The notes below the pieces were generated by a model that worked only from the letters and a program-made list of their open reading frames with translations, was not told the origin of the DNA and searched no databases. Shown one piece after another: positions 22,994-35,963 of a stretch of 64,000 nucleotides of DNA; position 1 is the stretch's first letter, and every line of letters begins with the position of its first letter. Made by a program: the position numbers and the translations under genes. The stretch spans positions 1 through 64,000 of the forward strand of contig JACPCL010000033.1 in NCBI GenBank assembly GCA_016179765.1, written 5' to 3'. The stretch comes from Chloroflexota bacterium (GTDB taxonomy: Bacteria > Chloroflexota > Dehalococcoidia > Lucifugimonadales > JACPCL1).

Positions 22994-23470
22994 CTACACC
23001 GCCGCGAGGCCACGGCGGTAACGGCCAACAATCTTGTTCAGCTCGTCTTCAATGAGGGAGAAGTCCTTGCGGGGGATCAGGTGCAGCTCGCCGAAGAAGG
23101 CCAGGGGCCACTGCTCGGGGATCCACCTCTTCACGTACTCCATGCTTGGCGCAATGTCCCGCGCGTCTATGTAATCGGCCTCCTCTTCTATCACCGCCTC
23201 TGCCTTGATGCGCACGCGGTGGGCGAAGGCCTCTTCCGGGCGGTGTGACCTCCACAGGGGCGTCTGGTCCACAAAGAAGGTGGAGGTGATGGTGGCCGAG
23301 GCGGGAAAGCGCTGTACGCCGGAGACGTAGTAGAGCAGGCGGTCGCCTATCTCCATGCGCTCCACCTTCTTGCGGTTGACCGTGGAGAAGCCCTGGACCG
23401 TGTAGCCCTGCTGTCGGGTGACGGCGAAGTTAGGCGGTGTGATGACCAGCATCCAGTAGTTGCGTGGCAT
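22994..23470 (-). CDS. EVE domain protein
   Basis: NYWMLVITPPNF..., VERMEIGDRLLYYVSGVQRFPASATITS. Confidence 0.8.
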   Translation of the reverse strand: MPRNYWMLVITPPNFAVTRQQGYTVQGFSTVNRKKVERMEIGDRLLYYVSGVQRFPASATITSTFFVDQTPLWRSHRPEEAFAHRVRIKAEAVIEEEADYIDARDIAPSMEYVKRWIPEQWPLAFFGELHLIPRKDFSLIEDELNKIVGRYRRGLAAV

Positions 23471-23699: not shown

Positions 23700-24890
23700 T
23701 CATGCCTCCAGGGATTTCCCTTCCGGTAGCTCCCGCATGCCCTCAAAACGCTGCTCCAACTCCCCCGCAAGTTGACTCAGCCTGACGATATTTTCCCGGG
23801 CTGACACTAGGCCCTCCTGCTTGAGCCGGTCGGCCATGTCCATGGCTTCCATCAGGGCGTTGTGGGCCTGGGTGATCTTCTCCAGGGCGACGACCGGTTC
23901 TTTATAGACGTCGCCAATCTCCTGAGTATGCCGTTTGACGGCCTCAGCGTTCGCCACGATCATCTCGCCCAGAAACTCCCGCGTGCGCTGCGTGGCTTCC
24001 AGGACCCTCCTCTGCCGGGCAAGGGCTACCTGAATGGCCAGTCCCACCATTACCACGTTGGTAGCCACGGTGAGGGTGCGCTCCACTGCCTGCCCCAGGC
24101 GAGTGTTGTTTTGCCTTGTCATCTCAATGCTGACAAAGAATTGGGTGTGCACCTCCTCCATGGTGCGAAGGTCCTGGACCCGCATGGAGACATCGTAGAG
24201 AGCGCTCTGGACCCTCTCCTTCTTGTGAGGGTCTTCGGTTCGCTCCATCAGCTCATCAAGTTCCTGCATCAGCAGTTCGCCCAGGTATGCGTTCTTCTGG
24301 ATAGGTAGCTGCTGAGACTCCACCTGCTCGTACATCTTCCGCAGCTCTACGTTGTCCCGGGTGAGCATCATCCGCCCTTCTCGGAGCCTGGTTTCTATGA
24401 TCACAACCTGCTGGGACACCGGTTCATAGTGGACAGCGATCTTCTCCAGGATTCTCAGCAGTCTGTCACGGAAGGGGAGGATGTCCAACAACCGCTGGAG
24501 CAGGCCTGTCTGGCTCAACTCGTGGGGGTTGATCTGTTTCAGGGCCAGGCGCAACTCCACCAGGTCACTGGTCAGACGGTCCGAGGCGCCTTCCTTGGTC
24601 AGCGTGTCCCCTACCCGGGCCCTAAGCAGCACCAGCTCCGAGGCCGCATGCCTCTGGGCTTGCATCCCCACGCTGGTGATGGTGTCTATGACCTCCATTC
24701 CCTTGCTGCCGCTGGCCTCTTCTAGTTGGCGCGCCACCTCCTGGGCCCGGGCCTTCAGCTCCTTTACCTCCTCATCCGATACGCCTTTAGGAGCCGGTGG
24801 TTCCTTCCTTGCCACCGTCAACCCTTTGGGCTCAGTGCCAGGAACGGCCGGTGTATCCTCAATTGGTCCCCGGATTTCTTCTGCTGCCAT
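23700..24890 (-). CDS. TelA-like toxic anion resistance protein
   Basis: Length and pattern of TelA/KlaA family: GDTLTKEGASDRLTSDLVELRLALKQINPHEL, LRILEKIAVHYEPVSQQVVIIETRLREGRMMLTRDNVELRKMYE. Confidence 0.85.
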   Translation of the reverse strand: MAAEEIRGPIEDTPAVPGTEPKGLTVARKEPPAPKGVSDEEVKELKARAQEVARQLEEASGSKGMEVIDTITSVGMQAQRHAASELVLLRARVGDTLTKEGASDRLTSDLVELRLALKQINPHELSQTGLLQRLLDILPFRDRLLRILEKIAVHYEPVSQQVVIIETRLREGRMMLTRDNVELRKMYEQVESQQLPIQKNAYLGELLMQELDELMERTEDPHKKERVQSALYDVSMRVQDLRTMEEVHTQFFVSIEMTRQNNTRLGQAVERTLTVATNVVMVGLAIQVALARQRRVLEATQRTREFLGEMIVANAEAVKRHTQEIGDVYKEPVVALEKITQAHNALMEAMDMADRLKQEGLVSARENIVRLSQLAGELEQRFEGMRELPEGKSLEA

Positions 24891-24927
24891 GACGTTCCTC
24901 CTTTCCTATATCCAAACTGGTTCGCCT

Positions 24928-26016
24928 CTAGAAACCTAGTCGCGTTAGCTCATCTTGGACCTCCTTCGCCCGCCGGATGGTCTCCTTCAAGGCCGCGATC
25001 ACCGAGTCCACGCTCGTCTTGGAGGCGCCAGCCCTGAGCAAGGCGAGCTCTATACGAGCGCTATGGAGGGAGGCCTCGCACCGGTGCGCCTGGTTCAGGA
25101 GTTGGTCTACGTGCACCTGAAGCTGGTCCAGCATGGCCAGGCGCTGCTTGTGAGAGGCCAGCCTCTCTTCCAGAACCTCCATCCTCGCCCTTTGACTTTC
25201 GTCCGCCCTCGAGGACTTAACCTCCCTGTCGAGCTTCGCTATTTCGGCCTGAAGCCGATTCCTGTTCGGTCCGAGGCCTGCGCTCATGAGGTCCAGGGCG
25301 TAGGCCAGGACGCTCAGGCCGCGACGGTAGGTCTCTGTGGCCAAGGCGGGAACTTGCACGATGGCGAGAGGATCGGTATCCATCCGGCGCTCGAAGACCG
25401 CTTGCAGCTTGTGGAACTCCTCCTCTAGCCCTCTCAAGGCTTCTTGCCCATGGGCTGACTCCATGTCGGCGAGGCCCGCCTTGAGCCTCTCTCGCAGTCC
25501 CTCCACCTCTGCTTGCGCCAAGCTCGCCTGCTCCCTCTCTAGCGCGGCCATCACCTTCTGGACCCTTCTTGCGTACTGCTCCGCGTACCGGAAGGCATAG
25601 CGCCAGAGAAACGAACCTGCAGCAGCTACACCCGATAGGCCGAACACCATCGCAGCCCAGAGGCTGCCGCCGCTCGGCGCGATCAGCAAGAGGTAGCTGG
25701 CCGAGGTCACGGCCACGCCCAGGGGCAACAGGGTAGCGGGGTGCTGGACGGCCTCCAAACGCAGCCGCTTCTTGATGGCCGCTTCGGACAGGTTTGCCTC
25801 CGCCGACTGGCCGGTGGAGGACAACTCCTCTAGTCCTGCGCCGGACCAGAGGAGGGCGACTATGGAGGCGGTGTAAGCCAGGAGACCCCAGAACAGGATC
25901 CAAAGCGCTTGCGATACCCAGCGGTCGAGCCACGGAAGGAACCGCATCGCCCCTGCCAGCAGAAGACTGGCGCTCAGCAGCGTGAGTCCGAGTGGATGAA
26001 AGAGTACCGCACGCAT
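24928..26016 (-). CDS. Coiled-coil membrane protein (possible XpaC-like role next to TelA)
   Basis: Four N-terminal hydrophobic segments then long coiled coil; 38 bp upstream of telA-like gene. Confidence 0.6.
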   Translation of the reverse strand: MRAVLFHPLGLTLLSASLLLAGAMRFLPWLDRWVSQALWILFWGLLAYTASIVALLWSGAGLEELSSTGQSAEANLSEAAIKKRLRLEAVQHPATLLPLGVAVTSASYLLLIAPSGGSLWAAMVFGLSGVAAAGSFLWRYAFRYAEQYARRVQKVMAALEREQASLAQAEVEGLRERLKAGLADMESAHGQEALRGLEEEFHKLQAVFERRMDTDPLAIVQVPALATETYRRGLSVLAYALDLMSAGLGPNRNRLQAEIAKLDREVKSSRADESQRARMEVLEERLASHKQRLAMLDQLQVHVDQLLNQAHRCEASLHSARIELALLRAGASKTSVDSVIAALKETIRRAKEVQDELTRLGF

Positions 26017-26043
26017 CGTCTCACTCCCTTCGCAGGGCTGTGC

Positions 26044-29000
26044 CTAGAAGTACTTGCTGAACTCCTCCAGGACATTGGCCAGGTCATCTTCCGTTGCGCC
26101 CTGGAACTCCGCTCCGGTGGCCTGGGAAAGGATCCTGCCGATGTCAAGGTCTGCGTCGCCGATTCCGATGAAGAAGACCTGGATGGGATGTGTGGTCTTG
26201 ACGGCCAATTCGTCGCCTACAATGCTTGCCTTATCAATGGGCCTGCCGTCTACTGCCACCGCCGACGTTTCGTTTTCCAACCCCCCGAATACCGGAATCG
26301 GGACCTCATCACGAGAGCTCATCTGGATAAGGTCATGCAGCTTCGTCTGGCCCCGGTTGGCGCGACCGTCGGTTAGGACTACCACAGCACGAATGGCGTC
26401 TGCCTCACCTTCCGCCCCATCCGTCATCTCAATACCCGCACTGATAGCGTCGTAAAGCGCGGTCCCGCCGTCCGCACCCATCTTGTGGACGACGTCGGCG
26501 ATGGCGAAACGGCTCTCCACCAACGGGGCAACGGCGATGCGTGTGTTCACGGTGTTGCTGAACGTAAGGAGCCCCACCTGGTTGTTCTTTGCCATGTTAT
26601 CCAGGGCCCGAACCAGTCCATCCCTGGCCTGCTCAATCTTGGTACCCAACATGGAGCCTGAGGTGTCCACAACAAAGGTCACGATGCCCGGCCTCTTCAC
26701 CAACTCCCAGGAGTCGTCAATGGCAGCGGCGACGGCAGGCTGAATTAGCGAAGGATAGAGCCACACTGTCGGTTTCGTCGGGTCCAACCCGAACTCGCCG
26801 TTGATCTTGCTGGAGGGGTCTTTGAGGGAGATGTCTGTTCCTGGCCGGAATCCCGCTGCCATGAAGGCTCGTTGCTGCTGGTCTTCTCGGATGAAGGCGA
26901 TCCACTTCTGTGCTGCCTCTACCTGCTCCTGGGTCACCCAGTCGGCCTGCACGATGCAAGCGCAGTTGCCGCGGGGCATGGAGCCTTCCTTGGGGTAGAT
27001 CATGACCATAGACCCCTGCGCGATGGGTGGTGGAGTGACCCTCTTCCCGTTCACGAAGGCGCGCTCGGTCCCATCATACAGGTGAATCAGGTTGTCCTCG
27101 GGCATGATGAAGAAGTGGCCATACCGGGGGCCTTGGTGCACCTTCGTGTTCAAGACGGTGGTGCCGATTAGGTAGTGGTCCACTAGGCCCTGGAACTGCT
27201 TCACATAGGCAACCACCGCCGGATCGCTCACGTCGTCGGGGGTGAGTTCCTCCGGCGGTTTGCCTGCGGCGATGGAGTAGAGGCCAAAGAGAAGGCTGCG
27301 GCCAGTGCTGGAGGTCGTGGGGTCGGTGAAGGCCACCAGGGGCTGCTGCCCCCACTCGGCCCTGGCACAATCGGGGTGGCTGGCCCAGCCCCGCGGGTCA
27401 TTCCGCAGGGCGATGACGTCGGCATAGCCGATCTCTTTGTCCGGCCAGCCGAGGCATCTCGCCATCGCCTCGTAGGTGACGATGCCAACGACCGGACGGA
27501 CGATACCGAGAGCACCCTTGAGGTCCACGACGTCGTGGCCGACTTCGTGGTTGACAGTGACCATCCAATGGGCATCGGAGGGCGTAACGATGGTAGGGTC
27601 CGGGACGTTCGGAGCGACGTATCCCCCGCTTAGCTGGGAGAGATCGATCCTCGTTCCGCTTTTCACCCGGGGAACCAGGTACTCTGCCTGGAGCTCCGAG
27701 GGAACGTCATGGACTGCGACCACAATCCTCTTGCCGGACTGGGTCCTGTGGCCAGCCTGGTTAAACTGGGTAGACATCTCGGGCAGCAGACCCGTCCTCA
27801 TCAGGTGGCCGTTGGTCCAGTGCACTACTTCAACGGTAGGCTCCGGCGGAGGCGGCCAGACGGCTCTGGCGGCGAAGAAACCAGCGATGCCCAGGACCCA
27901 CAGCACCGCGATGAGGGAGAGTACTCGTTGACGATTCAGCTTGGAGTTAGACATCTCAGACACCCCCTTTCTATGCCGTGCTACCCACACGACCGTTCGT
28001 CCAACGTCTGGCATTGCGCCAAAGCCAGTCCATGCAGTCCGCATTACGAAGAGCCCGCCTCGTTTCACTCCTCGGAGGGCGCCGGTCATGCCCTGCCAGA
28101 GGAGACTCCACATCCAGGCAAGAAGAAGGGCAAGCGTTGAGAGGCTCAGCCAGAGGTAGCCGATGACCATGGACACCGGACGGTAGAGATGGCGGAGCAC
28201 CAGGCCAACGGCCAGGGCAATGGCGGAGGCTACCACCTGCAGATAGTGCAGGATGGTGGAGACGCCCAGACCCAGATAATGTAGCGCCAGGCCCAGGGCC
28301 AAACCGATAGTCGAGACTCCGGCCCACAGGTAGTGGAGGATGCTGGCCACGCCCAGCCAGAAGGGGCGGAGGATAGTGGCGCCTCTCAGGCCCAGATAGC
28401 GCAGGGCCCTGGCGAAGCCCACTCCCATGAAGCGCAGCACCAAGCTGATCGCTTGAGCAATGGTGGTCACGCCTTCCCACAGGAAGTGGACGGTGACAGC
28501 GACGGCCGTCCACAAGTAGCGAAGGGCGGCGACGCCGCGCCCCACGTACCGCAGCACGGCCCCCAACCCCCTCAAGGCGTACCCCAAGGGGGTTACGGTC
28601 ACCATCCAGGCGAAGCGCAGAGCCGTTCCCAGCGCCCTTCCCAGGTACACCACGACTATGGCGGCGACGTGCCCCACGTATCGGAGGACGGCCCCCAACC
28701 CCCTCAAGGCGTACCCCAAGGGGGTTACGGTCACCATCCATGCGAAGCGCAGGGCCGTTCCCAGCGCCCTTCCGAGGTACACCACGACTGTGGCGGCGAC
28801 GTGCCCCACGTACCGGAGGACGGCCCCCAACCCCCTCAAGGCGTACGCCAAGGGGGTCACGGTCACCATCCATGCGAAGCGCAGGGCCGTTCCCAGCGCC
28901 CTTCCGAGGTACACCATGACTGTGGCGGCGCCGTGCCCCACGTACCGCAGCAGGGACCCCAACCCCCTCAGGGCGTACCCCAAGGGGGTCACGGTCACCT

Positions 29001-29424
29001 TCCATGCGGAGCGCAGGGCCGTTCCCAGCGCCCTTCCCAGGTACACCACGACTATGGCGGCGCCGTGCCCCACGTACCGCAGCAGCCTGACCACTGGCGT
29101 GAGGCGTCTCCATCCATAGGTGATGACGACCTGGGCGGGCGCCCAAGTGTAGACACCCCATGCAGGCCATGCGAAGATGCGCCAAGCACCTACCAGGGCC
29201 AGCGCACCTGCTCCCACGCATGCATATCTGACAGCGTTCAGTAGCGTGCCTGTCGCAGCCTCCTCAACTAACCCCTCAGCCAGAGCCCAGGTAACAATTG
29301 CCTCGTTGTTAACCCAGGCCATGGCACAGGCCCCAATGAACAGGAGGGCTAGCCAGCTCCCCAGCCCGGGTGCTCCAGCATGTGATGCTGCGATCTTCGT
29401 CGTTACGGACAACCTACTTTGCAT
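26044..29424 (-). CDS. Giant membrane protein: 44-aa amphipathic tandem repeats + SBP-like domain + vWA domain
   Basis: FVVDTSGSMLGTKIEQARDGLVRALD MIDAS, GGTALYDAIS, LTDGRANRG; start ATG 29424 has AAGGAGGTGAGGAC. Confidence 0.85.
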   Translation of the reverse strand: MQSRLSVTTKIAASHAGAPGLGSWLALLFIGACAMAWVNNEAIVTWALAEGLVEEAATGTLLNAVRYACVGAGALALVGAWRIFAWPAWGVYTWAPAQVVITYGWRRLTPVVRLLRYVGHGAAIVVVYLGRALGTALRSAWKVTVTPLGYALRGLGSLLRYVGHGAATVMVYLGRALGTALRFAWMVTVTPLAYALRGLGAVLRYVGHVAATVVVYLGRALGTALRFAWMVTVTPLGYALRGLGAVLRYVGHVAAIVVVYLGRALGTALRFAWMVTVTPLGYALRGLGAVLRYVGRGVAALRYLWTAVAVTVHFLWEGVTTIAQAISLVLRFMGVGFARALRYLGLRGATILRPFWLGVASILHYLWAGVSTIGLALGLALHYLGLGVSTILHYLQVVASAIALAVGLVLRHLYRPVSMVIGYLWLSLSTLALLLAWMWSLLWQGMTGALRGVKRGGLFVMRTAWTGFGAMPDVGRTVVWVARHRKGVSEMSNSKLNRQRVLSLIAVLWVLGIAGFFAARAVWPPPPEPTVEVVHWTNGHLMRTGLLPEMSTQFNQAGHRTQSGKRIVVAVHDVPSELQAEYLVPRVKSGTRIDLSQLSGGYVAPNVPDPTIVTPSDAHWMVTVNHEVGHDVVDLKGALGIVRPVVGIVTYEAMARCLGWPDKEIGYADVIALRNDPRGWASHPDCARAEWGQQPLVAFTDPTTSSTGRSLLFGLYSIAAGKPPEELTPDDVSDPAVVAYVKQFQGLVDHYLIGTTVLNTKVHQGPRYGHFFIMPEDNLIHLYDGTERAFVNGKRVTPPPIAQGSMVMIYPKEGSMPRGNCACIVQADWVTQEQVEAAQKWIAFIREDQQQRAFMAAGFRPGTDISLKDPSSKINGEFGLDPTKPTVWLYPSLIQPAVAAAIDDSWELVKRPGIVTFVVDTSGSMLGTKIEQARDGLVRALDNMAKNNQVGLLTFSNTVNTRIAVAPLVESRFAIADVVHKMGADGGTALYDAISAGIEMTDGAEGEADAIRAVVVLTDGRANRGQTKLHDLIQMSSRDEVPIPVFGGLENETSAVAVDGRPIDKASIVGDELAVKTTHPIQVFFIGIGDADLDIGRILSQATGAEFQGATEDDLANVLEEFSKYF
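28561..29088 (-). repeat. 132-bp (44-codon) in-frame tandem repeats, ~4 copies
   Basis: CCCCAACCCC anchors at 28561, 28693, 28825, 28957 (exact 132-bp spacing). Confidence 0.95.
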
Positions 29425-29486
29425 GTCCTCACCTCCTTCCTTCCGTGTCCTCCTAACGGGCGGGCGACGCTGCACAGGCGTCGCCC
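29425..29486 (-). promoter_or_regulatory. Leader element A: hairpin + AAGGAGGTG upstream of vWA gene
   Basis: GGGCGACGC..GCGTCGCCC hairpin and GGACACGGAAGGAAGGAGGTG. Confidence 0.5.
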
Positions 29487-30049
29487 TATGACCCTGCTGC
29501 GGGTGGCTGGCGAACCGCCTCACTGGGCTTGGGCTTCTGCACATCGGCGTACTTCCCGAACTTGCGGACCTCTTGTACCCCCCAATAAATCTGGGCGGCT
29601 CCGTAAACCGTCCAGCCTCCAAAGCCGCCGACGAAGATGTTGAGGAGGCCGACAACTACCAGGGTCGCGCCGATAGCTATGAACAAGCCTCGGTGGGCGA
29701 GAAAGAGGCTCAGTGCGCCCAGGGGCGCTACGACGAAGGCCCACAGGGGGTCCAGGAAGGGTAGGAAGTATTGGGCGACACCGATGGCGATAAGCCCGAT
29801 GCCCCAGCCACGCAGCTCACTTCGCATCTCCTCCCGCGTTGGCTGGCCTCCCTGGGCGTCCGCCAGCTTATCGTGGGCATTCTGGTCAACCGGGCGCACC
29901 TCCTCCTCAGGAGGCAGACCTTGTTTCCTGGCCTCCAGCGTAGTTTCACGCACGTCATGACCGGCCCCATGCACCGACCCTTGGTGCCAGGAAAGGGCGG
30001 GCTGGCTGCCGAAGGGTTTTCCGCAATCAGGGCAATTCAACTCGTTCAT
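29486..30049 (-). CDS. C2H2 zinc-finger-like plus membrane protein
   Basis: CPDCGKPFGSQPALSWHQGSVH then 2-3 TM helices. Confidence 0.7.
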   Translation of the reverse strand: MNELNCPDCGKPFGSQPALSWHQGSVHGAGHDVRETTLEARKQGLPPEEEVRPVDQNAHDKLADAQGGQPTREEMRSELRGWGIGLIAIGVAQYFLPFLDPLWAFVVAPLGALSLFLAHRGLFIAIGATLVVVGLLNIFVGGFGGWTVYGAAQIYWGVQEVRKFGKYADVQKPKPSEAVRQPPAAGS

Positions 30050-30118
30050 CTTTTGGCCTCCTCTCTTGGCTGCTGAGTTCCGTGGTCGCCAGTCCCCTAG
30101 ACCCCGATCTCATCGCTC

Positions 30119-30212
30119 TCACCTCCTTTCTCCTGTGTTCTTTGTGCAGAAAGGCGACGGTACACACCGTCGCCTTTCTCTCCTAACCCTGTTGTGGCCG
30201 GGTCGCCGCCGT
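30119..30212 (-). promoter_or_regulatory. Leader element B
   Basis: AGAAAGGCGACGGT-ACAC-ACCGTCGCCTTTCT hairpin, AGGAGGTG; 32-bp segment identical to element C. Confidence 0.5.
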
Positions 30213-30221
30213 CTAGTCGCA

Positions 30222-30461
30222 TTAGCCAGCCGCAGCTCGGCGTCCCTTGATTGTCATCACTGCCAGGGCGATGACCAGCAGGGCATCCGCAATATATCCT
30301 ACCGGGAAGGAATCCAGTGCATGCTCGACAGTAGCCCTCATGACCAACCTAGTCACGAAAATTGCGATGAATTGGATGCCCAAAGGCGTAAGAGCCCACC
30401 ATCTCCACCCACGTTTCCAAGCAGCGATAACAAGTCCAGCTTCCAGTAGAAGTAACCACAT
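30222..30461 (-). CDS. Small membrane protein
   Basis: MWLLLLEAGLVIAAWKRGWRWW...; ATG 30461 preceded by AGGAGG. Confidence 0.55.
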   Translation of the reverse strand: MWLLLLEAGLVIAAWKRGWRWWALTPLGIQFIAIFVTRLVMRATVEHALDSFPVGYIADALLVIALAVMTIKGRRAAAG

Positions 30462-30531
30462 TTGAGGTACCTCCTCCTTCATTTTCGGGACTCGTTAGCG
30501 GTATTGCGGTGTCTTTATCTTTGCTCTTAGC

Positions 30532-30627
30532 ACCACCTCCTTCCTTCGGTGTTCTCTGGGCAGAAGGCCGACGGTTCCGTACCGTCGCCTTTCCTTCCTA
30601 ACCCTGTTGTGGCCGGGTCGCCGCCGT
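30532..30627 (-). promoter_or_regulatory. Leader element C
   Basis: GGCGACGGTACGGAACCGTCG hairpin, GAACACCGAAGGAAGGAGGTG. Confidence 0.5.
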
Positions 30628-31025
30628 TATCCGTCTGTATTCGCTGTCGTCGGTTCTGCTACCATCCTTCGCCATTCGCTGTGGGTCATGGGCTTTTCCA
30701 GGATGCCCAGGCCCGGGACCTTCACCACGTAGGTGGGGCCCGACCTCTCCCATCCCTGGCCGGGCGGTGGGGCGTGGCCGTTGGCCCGGCCACCCTGGTG
30801 CCAGGTCCTGCCCTTGCCCCGTATCCTCAGGGCGCCGCTCTCTCCGCTCACCCTGTAGTCCAGGGGCCTCAGCCACCAGGGCAGGGGCGATTCGCCATCC
30901 CAGGGTCTGATGGCGCCGCTCTCATCCGAGGCCTGGCAGTCCGGGGAGGCTGGGGGCGTACTCCTTTTCATCAGGTACTGCCGCTGTCGTTCGGCTCGCC
31001 GCTCCCGCCTGGTCATGGGCTTCAT
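30627..31025 (-). CDS. Hypothetical protein with internal repeats
   Basis: DESGAIRPWDGESPLPWWLRPL / SGESGALRIRGKGRTWH; ATG 31025 with GGAG upstream. Confidence 0.4.
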   Translation of the reverse strand: MKPMTRRERRAERQRQYLMKRSTPPASPDCQASDESGAIRPWDGESPLPWWLRPLDYRVSGESGALRIRGKGRTWHQGGRANGHAPPPGQGWERSGPTYVVKVPGLGILEKPMTHSEWRRMVAEPTTANTDG

Positions 31026-31209
31026 TCGTCCGCTCCTCGTGACCTCTGGTTTTTGACTGCCCTTGACTTTGGCCACATCATGGACTACTGTTACTGCGAC
31101 GCACAAGTGGGTATGGCGTAAATAGTGCTCCATATCTCGCAAGATGTAGCAGCGACGGTGAAAATATCCGTCGTTTCTGCTACGCAAGTTGCAGGAGGGA
31201 TGGCGGCAG

Positions 31210-33927
31210 ATGCAAAAGCGAAACTCGCTGCTCTTCAGCCCGGAAATCCCACCAGACCTGGAGCATGCAGCCCAGGTCCGTGAGGAGGCCCTGGACTGGC
31301 TTGAGACCCATTACCCAGGGGCTCTCTCCTTCACCACCGGCGAGGTGCTCCGCATGGCGGGGGAGTCAGGTCACCGCTGGCTGATTACCCGGCTGCGGGC
31401 GCGGGACATCGGAAACGATGAGGAGTTCAGCCTGCCCGCCGCTGCCGATGCCCTGACGGTCCTCTTCCTGCGGTCCAGAGGGGTGAAGTTCCGCGAGGCC
31501 GTTGACGCCGTCGTTGGGGGCAAACAAGCCCCAAGGAGCCTGGAGCCCAGGTACGGAGGAGTGTGGAACCGGTTGATAGTCATTGGCCTCAAACGCCTGC
31601 GTCGGCGTGTTACGACACGCCTCCTGGGCAGCGCCGTGGCCGCCCTCCTCCGCGACCCGAAAGATCACCCCAACTGCCTCATCATCGTCAAGCGTCTTGG
31701 AAAGGGTGCGGATGTCGGTGCGTCCAGCAAGGCTAACGCCGCCAGTCATGAACACGTGTACCGGACGGTCCTAGAACGCCCGGCTCCATCGTGTTGGGTG
31801 ATCTCTCCCTTCCGCGAGGTCTTATATCTGGACGAAGACCAGCTTCCCACGCGCTCGGAGGTGACCTCCCGCCAATTTGTCGGGCTCCAGGTCAAGACTG
31901 CGCGTGAAGTCTACGAGCTGCTTCTGGGGGCCATGAGGCCGCTGTCGGTTGTCTTGGACAACGCGGCCCTGGAGTTCGTTGGCAAGATCCTTGATGCCGT
32001 ATTCCTGGATTTCGAGGAGTTTTACCGAAGGCAGTCGGTTTCCAAGTTCGAGGCCGCCACTGAACCGGAACCCAGCTCCGCGGATGACCTGCAACTATGG
32101 TTGATGTCCCAACTCCTCGCCGGTATCTATCCTGGGTCGCTGTGTGAATTGAGCGAGTCGTCCCAGTTCTCCCCACTGACCCGGGTGCTTGCCAATTCGG
32201 CGGCCAGGCCCTGGGAGCCTTCGCCATGGGAGCCTGCCAAGAGCCTGGAGATGCTCTCTGGGTATGCGAGCCGGGTTGGCGTTCCCCTGGTGGTGGAGAA
32301 GGTTGAGCCGCCCTGGATGTCGGTCGTTGAGTTCGTTGAGTCCGAGTTGCGCTATCTCAGAACCACAGCCACGGAGGATAGAGGCGCCGCAGAGTTCTCT
32401 GCTTTGGCTTTGCCCATCGCTTCCAGCTCCGGCAACCCCATAGGCTCGCTCTACATGCTCCTGCCTCGCCTTCAAGGGCCTCGCATGGACGTGGAGGTGC
32501 GCATTCTGACAGTGTTCAGTAGAATCATAGGAGAGATCATGGAACGGCAGAGGGCTGCCATTCACTCCGCCATCGTATCCGCGACGGCGGTTTCACATGC
32601 CATTCTCAAGCCAGAGCAATTCAAGACCGCACTGCTGGAACTGCTGCGTCAAAGCACCGGCGAGCTACAGGAGAATGGACATGCACAGCCAGACGTGAGA
32701 CTCCCCTTCATCCTCTTGTCCGCGTACTGTCCCGAGCCGGATGAGCTGGACCCTGCTACTTCAGGCCGCCTCAAAGACTGGCTCATAGATACGCTCCATC
32801 ATCTGGAGTGGCGCTCCTTTGTCCGGTCCCACCTGCCAGGCGCTCCAGAGGAGTACGGAGCGCAGGGCTTCATCGGCGAGGTGCCAGGTGTGGGGATGAT
32901 GGTCGCCCTGGGAAGGCTGGTCTCCAAAGACGAGTTGGACCGTATTCGGAACGCCTTCCCGACAAATTTCAACCGGATTACTCCAACCAACTCCCCCGTC
33001 AAGCTGGTGGCCTGGGTGCTGGATGTACCCGCACAGCAGATTCTGGATGCAGCCGACCACCACGACCTGCCAGGCTTGGCCGACCGTGTAGAGAGATGGG
33101 CTTTCGATGTAGCGTCCCTGGTGGACGATATCGCCCAGAGCTCTTCTCTAGCCCACGAGCAGGGGGAATGGGACGCAGCCCTTCGGAGGATCCGGAAGGC
33201 TTTCCAGAAGGAGGGCGCACGCAGTAACTCATATTTGCGCAGACTTGCCGCCGATTGTTCCTTTGCCTTGGGCGACTGGCCCAGCGCCCTCAAGTACGCT
33301 CAGGAGGCAGCCACGCTGAGCAAATACGAGCTGGGGAGCGGTCTTGTTCGGTCGTTGTGCCAGGAGGGAGATGCCCACCTGTGCCTGTGTCAGCCAGTGC
33401 GTGCGTGGGACCTGTATTCCGACGCCGCCTCACAAGCACCGACCCACCCGTTGCCCCGCTACTATCGGGGACAAGCCCTGCTGCTCATGGCGCGGCTTCT
33501 TGATGTATATGAAGGCGAGCGGCGGCGGTCAGCACAACTGGACGCGGGCGAGGTAGACCAGATCAGGGCGGTGCTGAACACGCTGGTGAGTGGGGCCATG
33601 GAGGACCTCACAGCGGCGGCAGACCTGCTGGACCGGTGGGGGCTCATACCCGAGTCGTACCAATACAGGAACTTCAACCTGGTTCCAACCTTATTGGGTC
33701 AGGGGTTCGCTTATCTCCTCGCTCGCTCGCCAGGCCCCGCCGCCAGCCGTCTCCAGAGCGCCCGCCGGTCCTTCCCCAAGGACGACCTGTTCTTCCGCGA
33801 GTTCCTCTTCGCCAAGTGTTGGGAGCAGGGGCTCCACCGGCGATATGGGGAGCTCTTGCTGGGAGATGAATGGGGGCCGCTGCGAGACCGACTAAACGGG
33901 ACGTTCGGCCAGCTTCATATCTCCTGA
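31210..33927 (+). CDS. Large putative sensory/regulatory protein (GAF-like middle, TPR-like C-terminus)
   Basis: ALALPIASSSGNPIGSLYMLLPRLQGPRMDVEVRILTVFSRIIGEIMERQ; alpha-helical repeats near C-terminus; GGAGGG upstream of ATG 31210. Confidence 0.55.
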   Translation: MQKRNSLLFSPEIPPDLEHAAQVREEALDWLETHYPGALSFTTGEVLRMAGESGHRWLITRLRARDIGNDEEFSLPAAADALTVLFLRSRGVKFREAVDAVVGGKQAPRSLEPRYGGVWNRLIVIGLKRLRRRVTTRLLGSAVAALLRDPKDHPNCLIIVKRLGKGADVGASSKANAASHEHVYRTVLERPAPSCWVISPFREVLYLDEDQLPTRSEVTSRQFVGLQVKTAREVYELLLGAMRPLSVVLDNAALEFVGKILDAVFLDFEEFYRRQSVSKFEAATEPEPSSADDLQLWLMSQLLAGIYPGSLCELSESSQFSPLTRVLANSAARPWEPSPWEPAKSLEMLSGYASRVGVPLVVEKVEPPWMSVVEFVESELRYLRTTATEDRGAAEFSALALPIASSSGNPIGSLYMLLPRLQGPRMDVEVRILTVFSRIIGEIMERQRAAIHSAIVSATAVSHAILKPEQFKTALLELLRQSTGELQENGHAQPDVRLPFILLSAYCPEPDELDPATSGRLKDWLIDTLHHLEWRSFVRSHLPGAPEEYGAQGFIGEVPGVGMMVALGRLVSKDELDRIRNAFPTNFNRITPTNSPVKLVAWVLDVPAQQILDAADHHDLPGLADRVERWAFDVASLVDDIAQSSSLAHEQGEWDAALRRIRKAFQKEGARSNSYLRRLAADCSFALGDWPSALKYAQEAATLSKYELGSGLVRSLCQEGDAHLCLCQPVRAWDLYSDAASQAPTHPLPRYYRGQALLLMARLLDVYEGERRRSAQLDAGEVDQIRAVLNTLVSGAMEDLTAAADLLDRWGLIPESYQYRNFNLVPTLLGQGFAYLLARSPGPAASRLQSARRSFPKDDLFFREFLFAKCWEQGLHRRYGELLLGDEWGPLRDRLNGTFGQLHIS

Positions 33928-33947
33928 ACCTGACCAAGAGGCGGGGG

Positions 33948-33972
33948 TCTGTCCCGATGGAATCGGGACAGA
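33948..33972 (+). terminator. Intrinsic terminator
   Basis: TCTGTCCCGAT-GGA-ATCGGGACAGA followed by TACAATTTT. Confidence 0.7.
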
Positions 33973-34238
33973 TACAATTTTCACTCCCTCCCTGGCCAGA
34001 GCCTGTCCTTGAGCGCAGCGAAGGAAAGGGAACAAGGGGGATGGCCGAAGGAGTTTTTCATCATCCTGCTGGGGATTCCTGCTGCCTCTGATGCCGCCTG
34101 GTAGCCGGGCGTTCTTACCCGTAGCTTTCGGCTGCAAAGTGGCAGGCTCTCCTCACCACCTGTCCATTGCGAAGCCCCCCTGTGCTAGAATGGCCCATGT
34201 CACGCTGGAGACGGCATCTACTCTAGTCACTTCCAGGG

Positions 34239-35963
34239 TTGGCTCTTTCCCTAATAGGCCTAGGGATCCAGATAAGCCCAATCCCAAGCAAGATTCCGTG
34301 GTTAGGCTATGCTGTCGGGGCCATAGGCGGTGTTTTTCTCCTTACCGCGCTGGCGTGGCCTACCGTATGGCGCCCTCGGATTGCCAGACGTAGTGCGCAG
34401 GCCTTGCCCAATGATTCATTGGAATCGCTCACCGTTTCTCTGACCCCTCGCCAGGTGCGGGTTGGCCAACGCGTCATTGAAGAGCATCTTGGCGACCGCG
34501 CTTTTCGCCTCTTGCATTTCTTGTCGGAAAACAAGGGCAACTGGTACACGGTAGCTCATCTTGTAAGCTTGTTGTATCCCGATCCCGAGAGGTCCCCGGA
34601 ACAAGCCGATCAGGCCTTGTCTCGATACAAGAGGACCATCAACGATCTCCTCAAGCCCTATCTACAAGGTGAAGACGCCATAGAATCCTGGCCCTATATG
34701 GGCTACCGTATCAAGCCCATAGTTCAGCCAAAATCCGGACCTTCATCTCCAGCTGGGAGGCATACGCGGGTCATTTGGGTGTCGTCTGGAGCCATTCTGC
34801 TTGTGGCCATCGCGGTGTCCTTGATAATCGTCGCTGGTCCACTGGTTTCCCCCCCTCGAACGTCCATTACTATCACCATCGCCAGCTCAAGCACAAAAAA
34901 GGAATGGATAAATCAAGCCGTCGCCGCTTTCATTGAGGAATCCAAGGCCAACGAGCAGTTCCAGATAGAACATAGGGCTATCGTCGTCACGGTGCTGTTG
35001 GAAGAGATAGAGCCTGGACGGTGGGATCATTATCGGTCTGGCTCCATGATCAGAGACATTCTCTCACGGAAGATTGAGCCAACCATTGCGTCGCCGGCGG
35101 AACAGAGCTGGATACTTGATCTCAAGGAGAGTTGGCCTGACCGTAAGCCCATAGTTAGCGACGATGGACCCGGGTTGGTGCGAACCCCGTTGGTGATTGC
35201 GATGTGGCGGTCTAGAGCCATGGCTCTGGGTTGCTGGCCAACCGCTGGTCCGGATTGTACTTGGGAGCGTCTCCGTGCTCTGGCATCCAGCACCGAGGGG
35301 TGGGGGATACTGGGCCACCCTGAGTGGGGCAAACTGAAATACGGATACGGCTTCGTTGGTAAATCAAACTCGGCCACGTTCACTATGGTTTTGAATTGCA
35401 TGAGCGGCCTCCAAAAGACCAGCGGCCTCACACTGGAAGACGTACGTCGTGAGTCAGGTTGTGGCCACGCGATGCTAGCGCTGAGGAAGCCACCAGGGGA
35501 TACAGCGGTGATACGCATTTATGAGAAGAGTGAATGGGCGCTCCGGGATATGTGGCAAATCGGGCCCTCATATTTAGATGCTGTCACCACGTACGAACAG
35601 GAAGTAACAGAAGTTGCTGCGGAACAGGCCCCAAGACTCCCTGAGCCGATTGTGGCTGCATATCCACAAGACGGGGTTATCATGGCCACTCACCCATTCA
35701 CCATCCTTGATGGAGCACCTTGGGTAACGCTTGATCAGGCGAAGGCAGCCAGAATCTTCCGACAGTTCCTACTTTCCAGGCAACAGCAATCACTTCTTCT
35801 GGGGTATGGATTCCGTCCGGCCGATGCGGCTGCTACCCTGGGGCCACGGATCGACCCTGCATATGGCGTAAACCCACAAGCTAATCTAGCATTGATAGAC
35901 GTCCCTCATAGCCTGGTCATAGATGCTATCGTCAAACTCTGGGAAGCGTTCGCGGCCCTATAA
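34239..35963 (+). CDS. Membrane-anchored winged-helix regulator with extracytoplasmic SBP-like domain
   Basis: N-terminal TMs; wHTH RQVRVGQRVIEEHLGDRAFRLLHFLSENKGNWYTVAHLVSLLYPDPERSPEQADQALSRYKRTINDLL; TM; SBP-like domain; TTG start. Confidence 0.65.
   Translation: MALSLIGLGIQISPIPSKIPWLGYAVGAIGGVFLLTALAWPTVWRPRIARRSAQALPNDSLESLTVSLTPRQVRVGQRVIEEHLGDRAFRLLHFLSENKGNWYTVAHLVSLLYPDPERSPEQADQALSRYKRTINDLLKPYLQGEDAIESWPYMGYRIKPIVQPKSGPSSPAGRHTRVIWVSSGAILLVAIAVSLIIVAGPLVSPPRTSITITIASSSTKKEWINQAVAAFIEESKANEQFQIEHRAIVVTVLLEEIEPGRWDHYRSGSMIRDILSRKIEPTIASPAEQSWILDLKESWPDRKPIVSDDGPGLVRTPLVIAMWRSRAMALGCWPTAGPDCTWERLRALASSTEGWGILGHPEWGKLKYGYGFVGKSNSATFTMVLNCMSGLQKTSGLTLEDVRRESGCGHAMLALRKPPGDTAVIRIYEKSEWALRDMWQIGPSYLDAVTTYEQEVTEVAAEQAPRLPEPIVAAYPQDGVIMATHPFTILDGAPWVTLDQAKAARIFRQFLLSRQQQSLLLGYGFRPADAAATLGPRIDPAYGVNPQANLALIDVPHSLVIDAIVKLWEAFAAL

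Follow-up and report, generated by a model that had tools for sequence, protein, structure and literature searches.

The window examined here is a stretch of 64,000 nucleotides from a Chloroflexota bacterium (positions 1 to 64,000 of contig JACPCL010000033.1, assembly GCA_016179765.1). Within it, a run of minus-strand genes encodes a TelA-family protein, a coiled-coil membrane protein that we call B, and a giant protein carrying a solute-binding protein (SBP) domain and a vWA domain, and these three almost certainly constitute a conserved functional module. Two further genes, G and H, face away from it. Judged from sequence, the module is genuine, conserved and apparently uncharacterised, with a plausible putative function. 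It is best explained overall as a transmembrane envelope-surveillance module, a reading that we favour with modest confidence. TelA proteins are widespread and protect against cell-wall-active antibiotics. At this locus TelA is joined by a specific membrane partner, by a ligand-binding/vWA protein predicted to be extracellular and by signalling components, so that the action of TelA and the question of what is sensed become testable; the proteins would be expected to form a physical complex with a given topology, and the SBP domains to have ligands. Moreover, TelA, PspA and Ser/Thr kinase (STK) signalling are linked in one family of loci from the poorly studied Chloroflexota.

The case for a module comes from related genomes. 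Seven loci, the window included, carry both flanks, while an eighth contig (L032/L057) ends inside TelA. B directly adjoins TelA in all seven, an arrangement with a chance probability of ~1e-19 or less, and an SBP or SBP-vWA gene is also adjacent in six. The order is SBP-vWA-B-TelA in the window and B-TelA-SBP-vWA elsewhere, which means that the adjacency has been kept despite rearrangement. In genome G058 (locus L021) the genes run F-B-TelA-giant, F being a small basic protein also found in the window, and in G128 (L030) G is divergent from B-TelA-giant. In G167 (L029) a Ser/Thr kinase is fused to B and followed by TelA and SBP-vWA, and G292 (L044) has a row of FHA-winged helix-turn-helix (wHTH), STK-SBP, a vWA protein, B, TelA and SBP-vWA. 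In an Anaerolineaceae genome, B-TelA is accompanied by the first part of an SBP gene, broken by a run of N, and in G271 (L043) TelA-B faces PP2C and STK genes with no vWA gene nearby. At L020 of the same-genus genome G001 (G001:C301), which is without TelA, SBP-vWA, B, RtcB and a protein starting with a giant-like membrane region are found; the RtcB RNA ligase lies between B and this giant-type membrane protein.

The linkage of these genes in related genomes had been singled out beforehand, in the original prediction, as the point on which it could fail. The core TelA-B-SBP-vWA linkage survived, and the three proteins form a unit that is conserved in different genera of Chloroflexota and in the one Anaerolineaceae genome sampled. 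That the genes are unrelated and merely happen to be neighbours is thus hardly credible, and for B, TelA and SBP-vWA it is refuted by an adjacency maintained through gene-order change in distant genera. What speaks for chance is that most relatives do not have H and two small transmembrane (TM) genes (29486-30049 and 30222-30482) next to the module. The two small proteins have no match in the sampled related loci, and the position of their genes may be a matter of chance.

The original prediction had placed six minus-strand open reading frames (ORFs) and two facing away, and all eight are present at those positions in the ORF list of the window. The layout is as follows:

23700..24890, minus strand: TelA (PF05816, Pfam E 6.4e-43), 396 aa, predicted cytosolic or sub-membrane
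24928..26016, minus strand: B, TM hairpins and an extended helical coiled coil at the C-terminus (from TM segments and a model), no named family
26044..29424, minus strand: giant, with an Arg-rich hydrophobic/repeat membrane region of ~500 aa, a TM anchor at 501-519, SBP and vWA
28528..29084, minus strand: 132-bp tandem repeat inside the giant, 4.2 copies, 93%, 44-aa units
29486..30049, minus strand: small protein, two TM segments and possibly a C2H2 finger (sub-threshold, 0.0013)
30222..30482, minus strand: small two-TM protein
30627..31025, minus strand: F, accessory to the module, a small basic protein of 132 aa, conserved
31210..33927, plus strand: G, ~905 aa, C-terminal TPR (weak TPR matches), no assignment for the N-terminal part, divergent from the module
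34239..35963, plus strand: H, TM, winged helix, TM and extracytoplasmic SBP; predicted membrane-bound one-component regulator

The tight spacing of the core genes was also borne out, with gaps of 27 bp between the giant stop (26044) and the B start (26016) and 37 bp between the B stop (24928) and the TelA start (24890), in place of the 28 and 38 bp given earlier. The ORFs at 29486-30049 and 30222-30482 are each preceded by a copy of a ~95-bp leader (30116-30216 and 30534-30627, minus strand). The two copies are 86% alike, carry a 14-nt perfect hairpin and a strong ribosome-binding site, and occur nowhere else in the genome, while a partial version lies ahead of the giant; an attenuator or a duplicated leader is possible. 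Rfam gave no match in the window, and no shared operator motif was found in the divergent regions. The next gene downstream of TelA, in the same orientation, encodes an EVE-domain protein (22994-23470; PF01878, 9e-8), and no counterpart turned up in the related loci that were searched.

TelA itself is securely assigned, scoring 147 bits against a PF05816 cut-off of 30, and is 46-56% identical to five Chloroflexota orthologues (alignment A1). It is rare: members above the cut-off occur in 6/250 genomes of the order and 5/393 of the class, and a survey of one genome per GTDB species (85,462 genomes) yielded only seven other loci with this TelA subfamily, all in Chloroflexota. No solved structure of the family is detectable by sequence, and the literature examined offers no agreed mechanism. 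Among annotated phages, a 636-kb uncultured phage (L093, LR756504.1) carries a TelA at 21% identity, with coiled-coil and TM genes nearby and no SBP-vWA beside it. B matches no Pfam family over cut-off. It is present in 5/247 genomes of the order, four of which also have TelA (P 5e-7). Its predicted structure is all-helical (predicted local distance difference test score, pLDDT, 75), and a fold search returned no PDB match below E 0.1, the coiled-coil and BAR-domain matches being uninformative.

The giant matches VWA (PF00092, 1e-13) and, slightly under the family cut-off, SBP_bac_8 (1e-5). Its N-terminal ~500 residues, which contain the 44-aa repeats, are hydrophobic and Arg-rich with ~2% Asp and Glu. 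The vWA domain has a complete metal ion-dependent adhesion site (DxSGS...T...D), the residues of which are invariant across relatives. Charge bias around the last TM segment together with hydropathy places the SBP and vWA domains outside the cell, and they are accordingly predicted to be extracellular. Relatives of the giant are found at L021, L030, L044 and L077. A vWA gene related to the SBP-vWA family is also found on a plasmid of Streptomyces sp. CdTB01 (L091), where it overlaps a trypsin-like peptidase gene.

H is the candidate regulator. It matches SBP_bac_11 (2e-7), which follows a predicted TM segment at 185-203, and its Trans_reg_C match is sub-threshold (0.0016; 18.9 bits, cut-off 26.2). 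In its winged helix H shares 53% identity with the C-terminal half of the FHA-wHTH protein of G292 (L044), itself sub-threshold, and in its SBP domain 64% with the extracytoplasmic domain of the STK-SBP protein of the same locus. The two genes are neighbours in G292, and the same pair recurs in G167 (L096). From these matches to separate proteins it follows that H fuses a regulator with a sensor borne elsewhere by a kinase, and no other finding speaks more strongly for a regulatory arm that senses a ligand. These split homologues in two other genomes independently support the architecture that had been proposed, of an external SBP sensor, a membrane-tethered wHTH and a vWA/TelA/coiled-coil effector. 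The proposed linkage of the wHTH-SBP gene to the rest is more weakly supported: it is seen at the same locus, in split form, only at L044, whereas in the second genome (L096) the pair lies on another contig.

Since the giant and H each carry an SBP domain, it could be supposed that the locus senses nutrients or solutes, the SBP domains binding substrate, H or STK-SBP switching uptake genes, and TelA and B being structural. A low-GC contig in bin G019 (L031; 31% GC, a probable contaminant) lends this idea some substance, since vWA, B-like and TelA genes there stand beside an ABC importer. The full row is SBP-OmpA, ABC ATPase, permease, SBP, TelA, B-like, vWA and OmpA-like; judging by gene content, it is a putative distant form of the module joined to a transporter. 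However, the ORFs on either side of the module in the window include no permease or ATPase gene, the SBP forms a fusion with vWA instead of serving a transporter, and the TelA and PspA partners indicate the membrane itself. We therefore regard solute sensing as quite unlikely to be the module's purpose.

F and G are partners of a different kind. F is 66% identical to a protein beside G in G003 (L079) and 54% identical to a protein upstream of B in G058 (L021); this conservation, together with codon-position differences of 27/29/50, as in coding sequence, marks it as a real gene. A long match to G occurs in 7/247 genomes of the order, with degraded fragments in others, and G is present in all four genomes of the order that have TelA and B (hypergeometric P 2e-7). 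G is divergent from a module-type operon twice more, at L030 and at L077, where the operon consists of PspA and a second giant. Fragmented or truncated copies in several members of the order (L082, L083, L084 and L085) suggest that the gene is repeatedly being lost. The original prediction had described G as a GAF/TPR-like sensor-regulator. Its link to the module stands, while nothing shows a sensor-regulator role and the GAF label has no HMM support. G has weak TPR matches alone in Pfam, where no GAF match was found; its model, with a pLDDT of 54, can be trusted only near the TPR stretch and is too poor elsewhere, and its PDB matches are TPR proteins with E above 1e-3. The order of helices and strands hints at GAF-like and degenerate cyclase-like parts, which it does not establish.

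The rarity, the patchy distribution and the decayed G fragments raise the prospect of a conflict or anti-phage system, in which the giant with kinase, FHA and PP2C proteins would detect invasion at the envelope and TelA and B would block entry or disrupt the membrane. The kinase, FHA and PP2C partners fit such a role, as do RtcB at one locus and the EVE-domain neighbour in the window, and TelA and Ter vWA proteins have been proposed as sub-membrane barriers against phage (PMC7824862). Even so, we consider it unlikely. The module has no nuclease, toxin or mobile-element signature, its outer domains are solute-binding like, and no known defence system was recognised, the PADLOC matches being weak noise driven by coiled coils.

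Envelope surveillance, the reading that we prefer, takes its direction from the TelA family, as would the envelope or chemical stress function of the original prediction. The xpaC-yaaN operon, in which yaaN is the TelA homologue, belongs to the core sigma-W operons of Bacillus subtilis (PMC3498285), and disruption of TelA in Listeria raises nisin sensitivity 4-fold (PMC12791056). These two observations, along with a single case of PspA in the place of B and TelA, are the reason for assigning the module to the envelope; that envelope stress is its actual task we would put at evens or slightly better. In that case, the Arg-rich membrane region would anchor the giant, with SBP and a metal-dependent vWA displayed outside and reporting or binding at the envelope. 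B would couple the membrane to the cytosol through its coiled coil, and TelA would assemble into a sub-membrane layer. H, or the kinase version (STK/FHA) in relatives, would sense an external ligand or damage signal and adjust expression of the module, whereupon vWA, B and TelA would stabilise the envelope. In its mode of action the module may thus be likened to the TelA/XpaC type of envelope-stress operon, equipped with a sensor outside the cell.

Several points weigh against this. The case of PspA is seen at L077 (G167:C312), where PspA in the position of B/TelA and then a second SBP-vWA giant are divergent from G, with a kinase-AAA-TPR gene behind G; this pairing was seen once, and the only other PspA found, in G058, lies in an ordinary PspA neighbourhood. 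B could not be equated with XpaC, given that it has no PF10112 match and that none was over cut-off in the 10 genomes examined. H is rarely beside the core and is not adjacent to the module in most relatives, and neither Pfam nor the model assigns a signalling domain to G. The patchy distribution and decayed G copies would fit a conflict system as well, and the topology throughout is read from hydropathy alone.

Among the closest known systems is the XpaC-YaaN operon of Bacillus and Listeria (sigma-W and LiaSR envelope-stress regulons), where the gene of a TelA-family protein and that of a small membrane/coiled-coil partner likewise form a tight operon. However, B is not XpaC by profile, and the module is larger by a giant with predicted extracellular SBP-vWA, by F and G, and by regulators or kinases that carry SBP domains. 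H resembles ToxR/CadC-like regulators in that a TM segment would connect a putative winged helix in the cytosol with a sensor outside. Unlike these, its sensor is a solute-binding domain, it has an extra N-terminal TM segment, and its homologues are split into FHA-wHTH and STK-SBP. The SBP-vWA fusion has counterparts in Actinomycetota proteins annotated as 'Substrate-binding and VWA domain-containing' (Streptomyces NBC_00564, Miltoncostaea), where a TM-hairpin coiled-coil protein follows directly; there, however, no TelA is adjacent and the Arg-rich giant region is missing. The following protein is weakly alignable to B (hhalign probability 76%), which is only suggestive of homology. No description of SBP-vWA combined with TelA was found in the literature; the main Ter survey (PMC4104200), which may describe it, was outside the search, and priority is therefore not certain.

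The kinase and PP2C partners in some relatives presumably resemble the TerY-P triad. Pfam places neither a protein kinase nor PP2C among the module proteins of the window, which thus do not form such a triad. Ter systems (TerB/C/D, TerF/TerY vWA, TelA) do resemble the module in that TelA and a vWA protein are encoded together (PMC7824862), and the TelA family is named for toxic anion resistance; kinship to Ter loci had indeed been proposed. TerD, however, was found in 0/7 module genomes while control genomes were positive, and the module is on that account not a Ter system. Moreover, hydropathy and charge would place its vWA outside the cell, fused to SBP on a membrane-repeat anchor, in contrast to the cytosolic Ter vWA, and SBP domains are not among the Ter components listed in PMC7824862. 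Kinship to Ter is not borne out, and a Ter-type locus for resistance to toxic anions such as tellurite is very improbable. With the Psp system (PspA/IM30) the module has a membrane theme in common, PspA being next to a giant at L077. The window genome lacks PspA, which excludes a Psp system, and a survey of Psp partners mentions neither vWA nor TelA (PMC11237479). A bolder proposal, to which we lend only limited credence, is that the module might represent a third membrane-integrity machinery beside Psp and Ter: a transmembrane mechanochemical system in which a giant-anchored extracellular SBP-vWA adhesive sensor would be connected, by way of B and either TelA or PspA, to regulation by kinase/FHA proteins or by a membrane-tethered winged helix.

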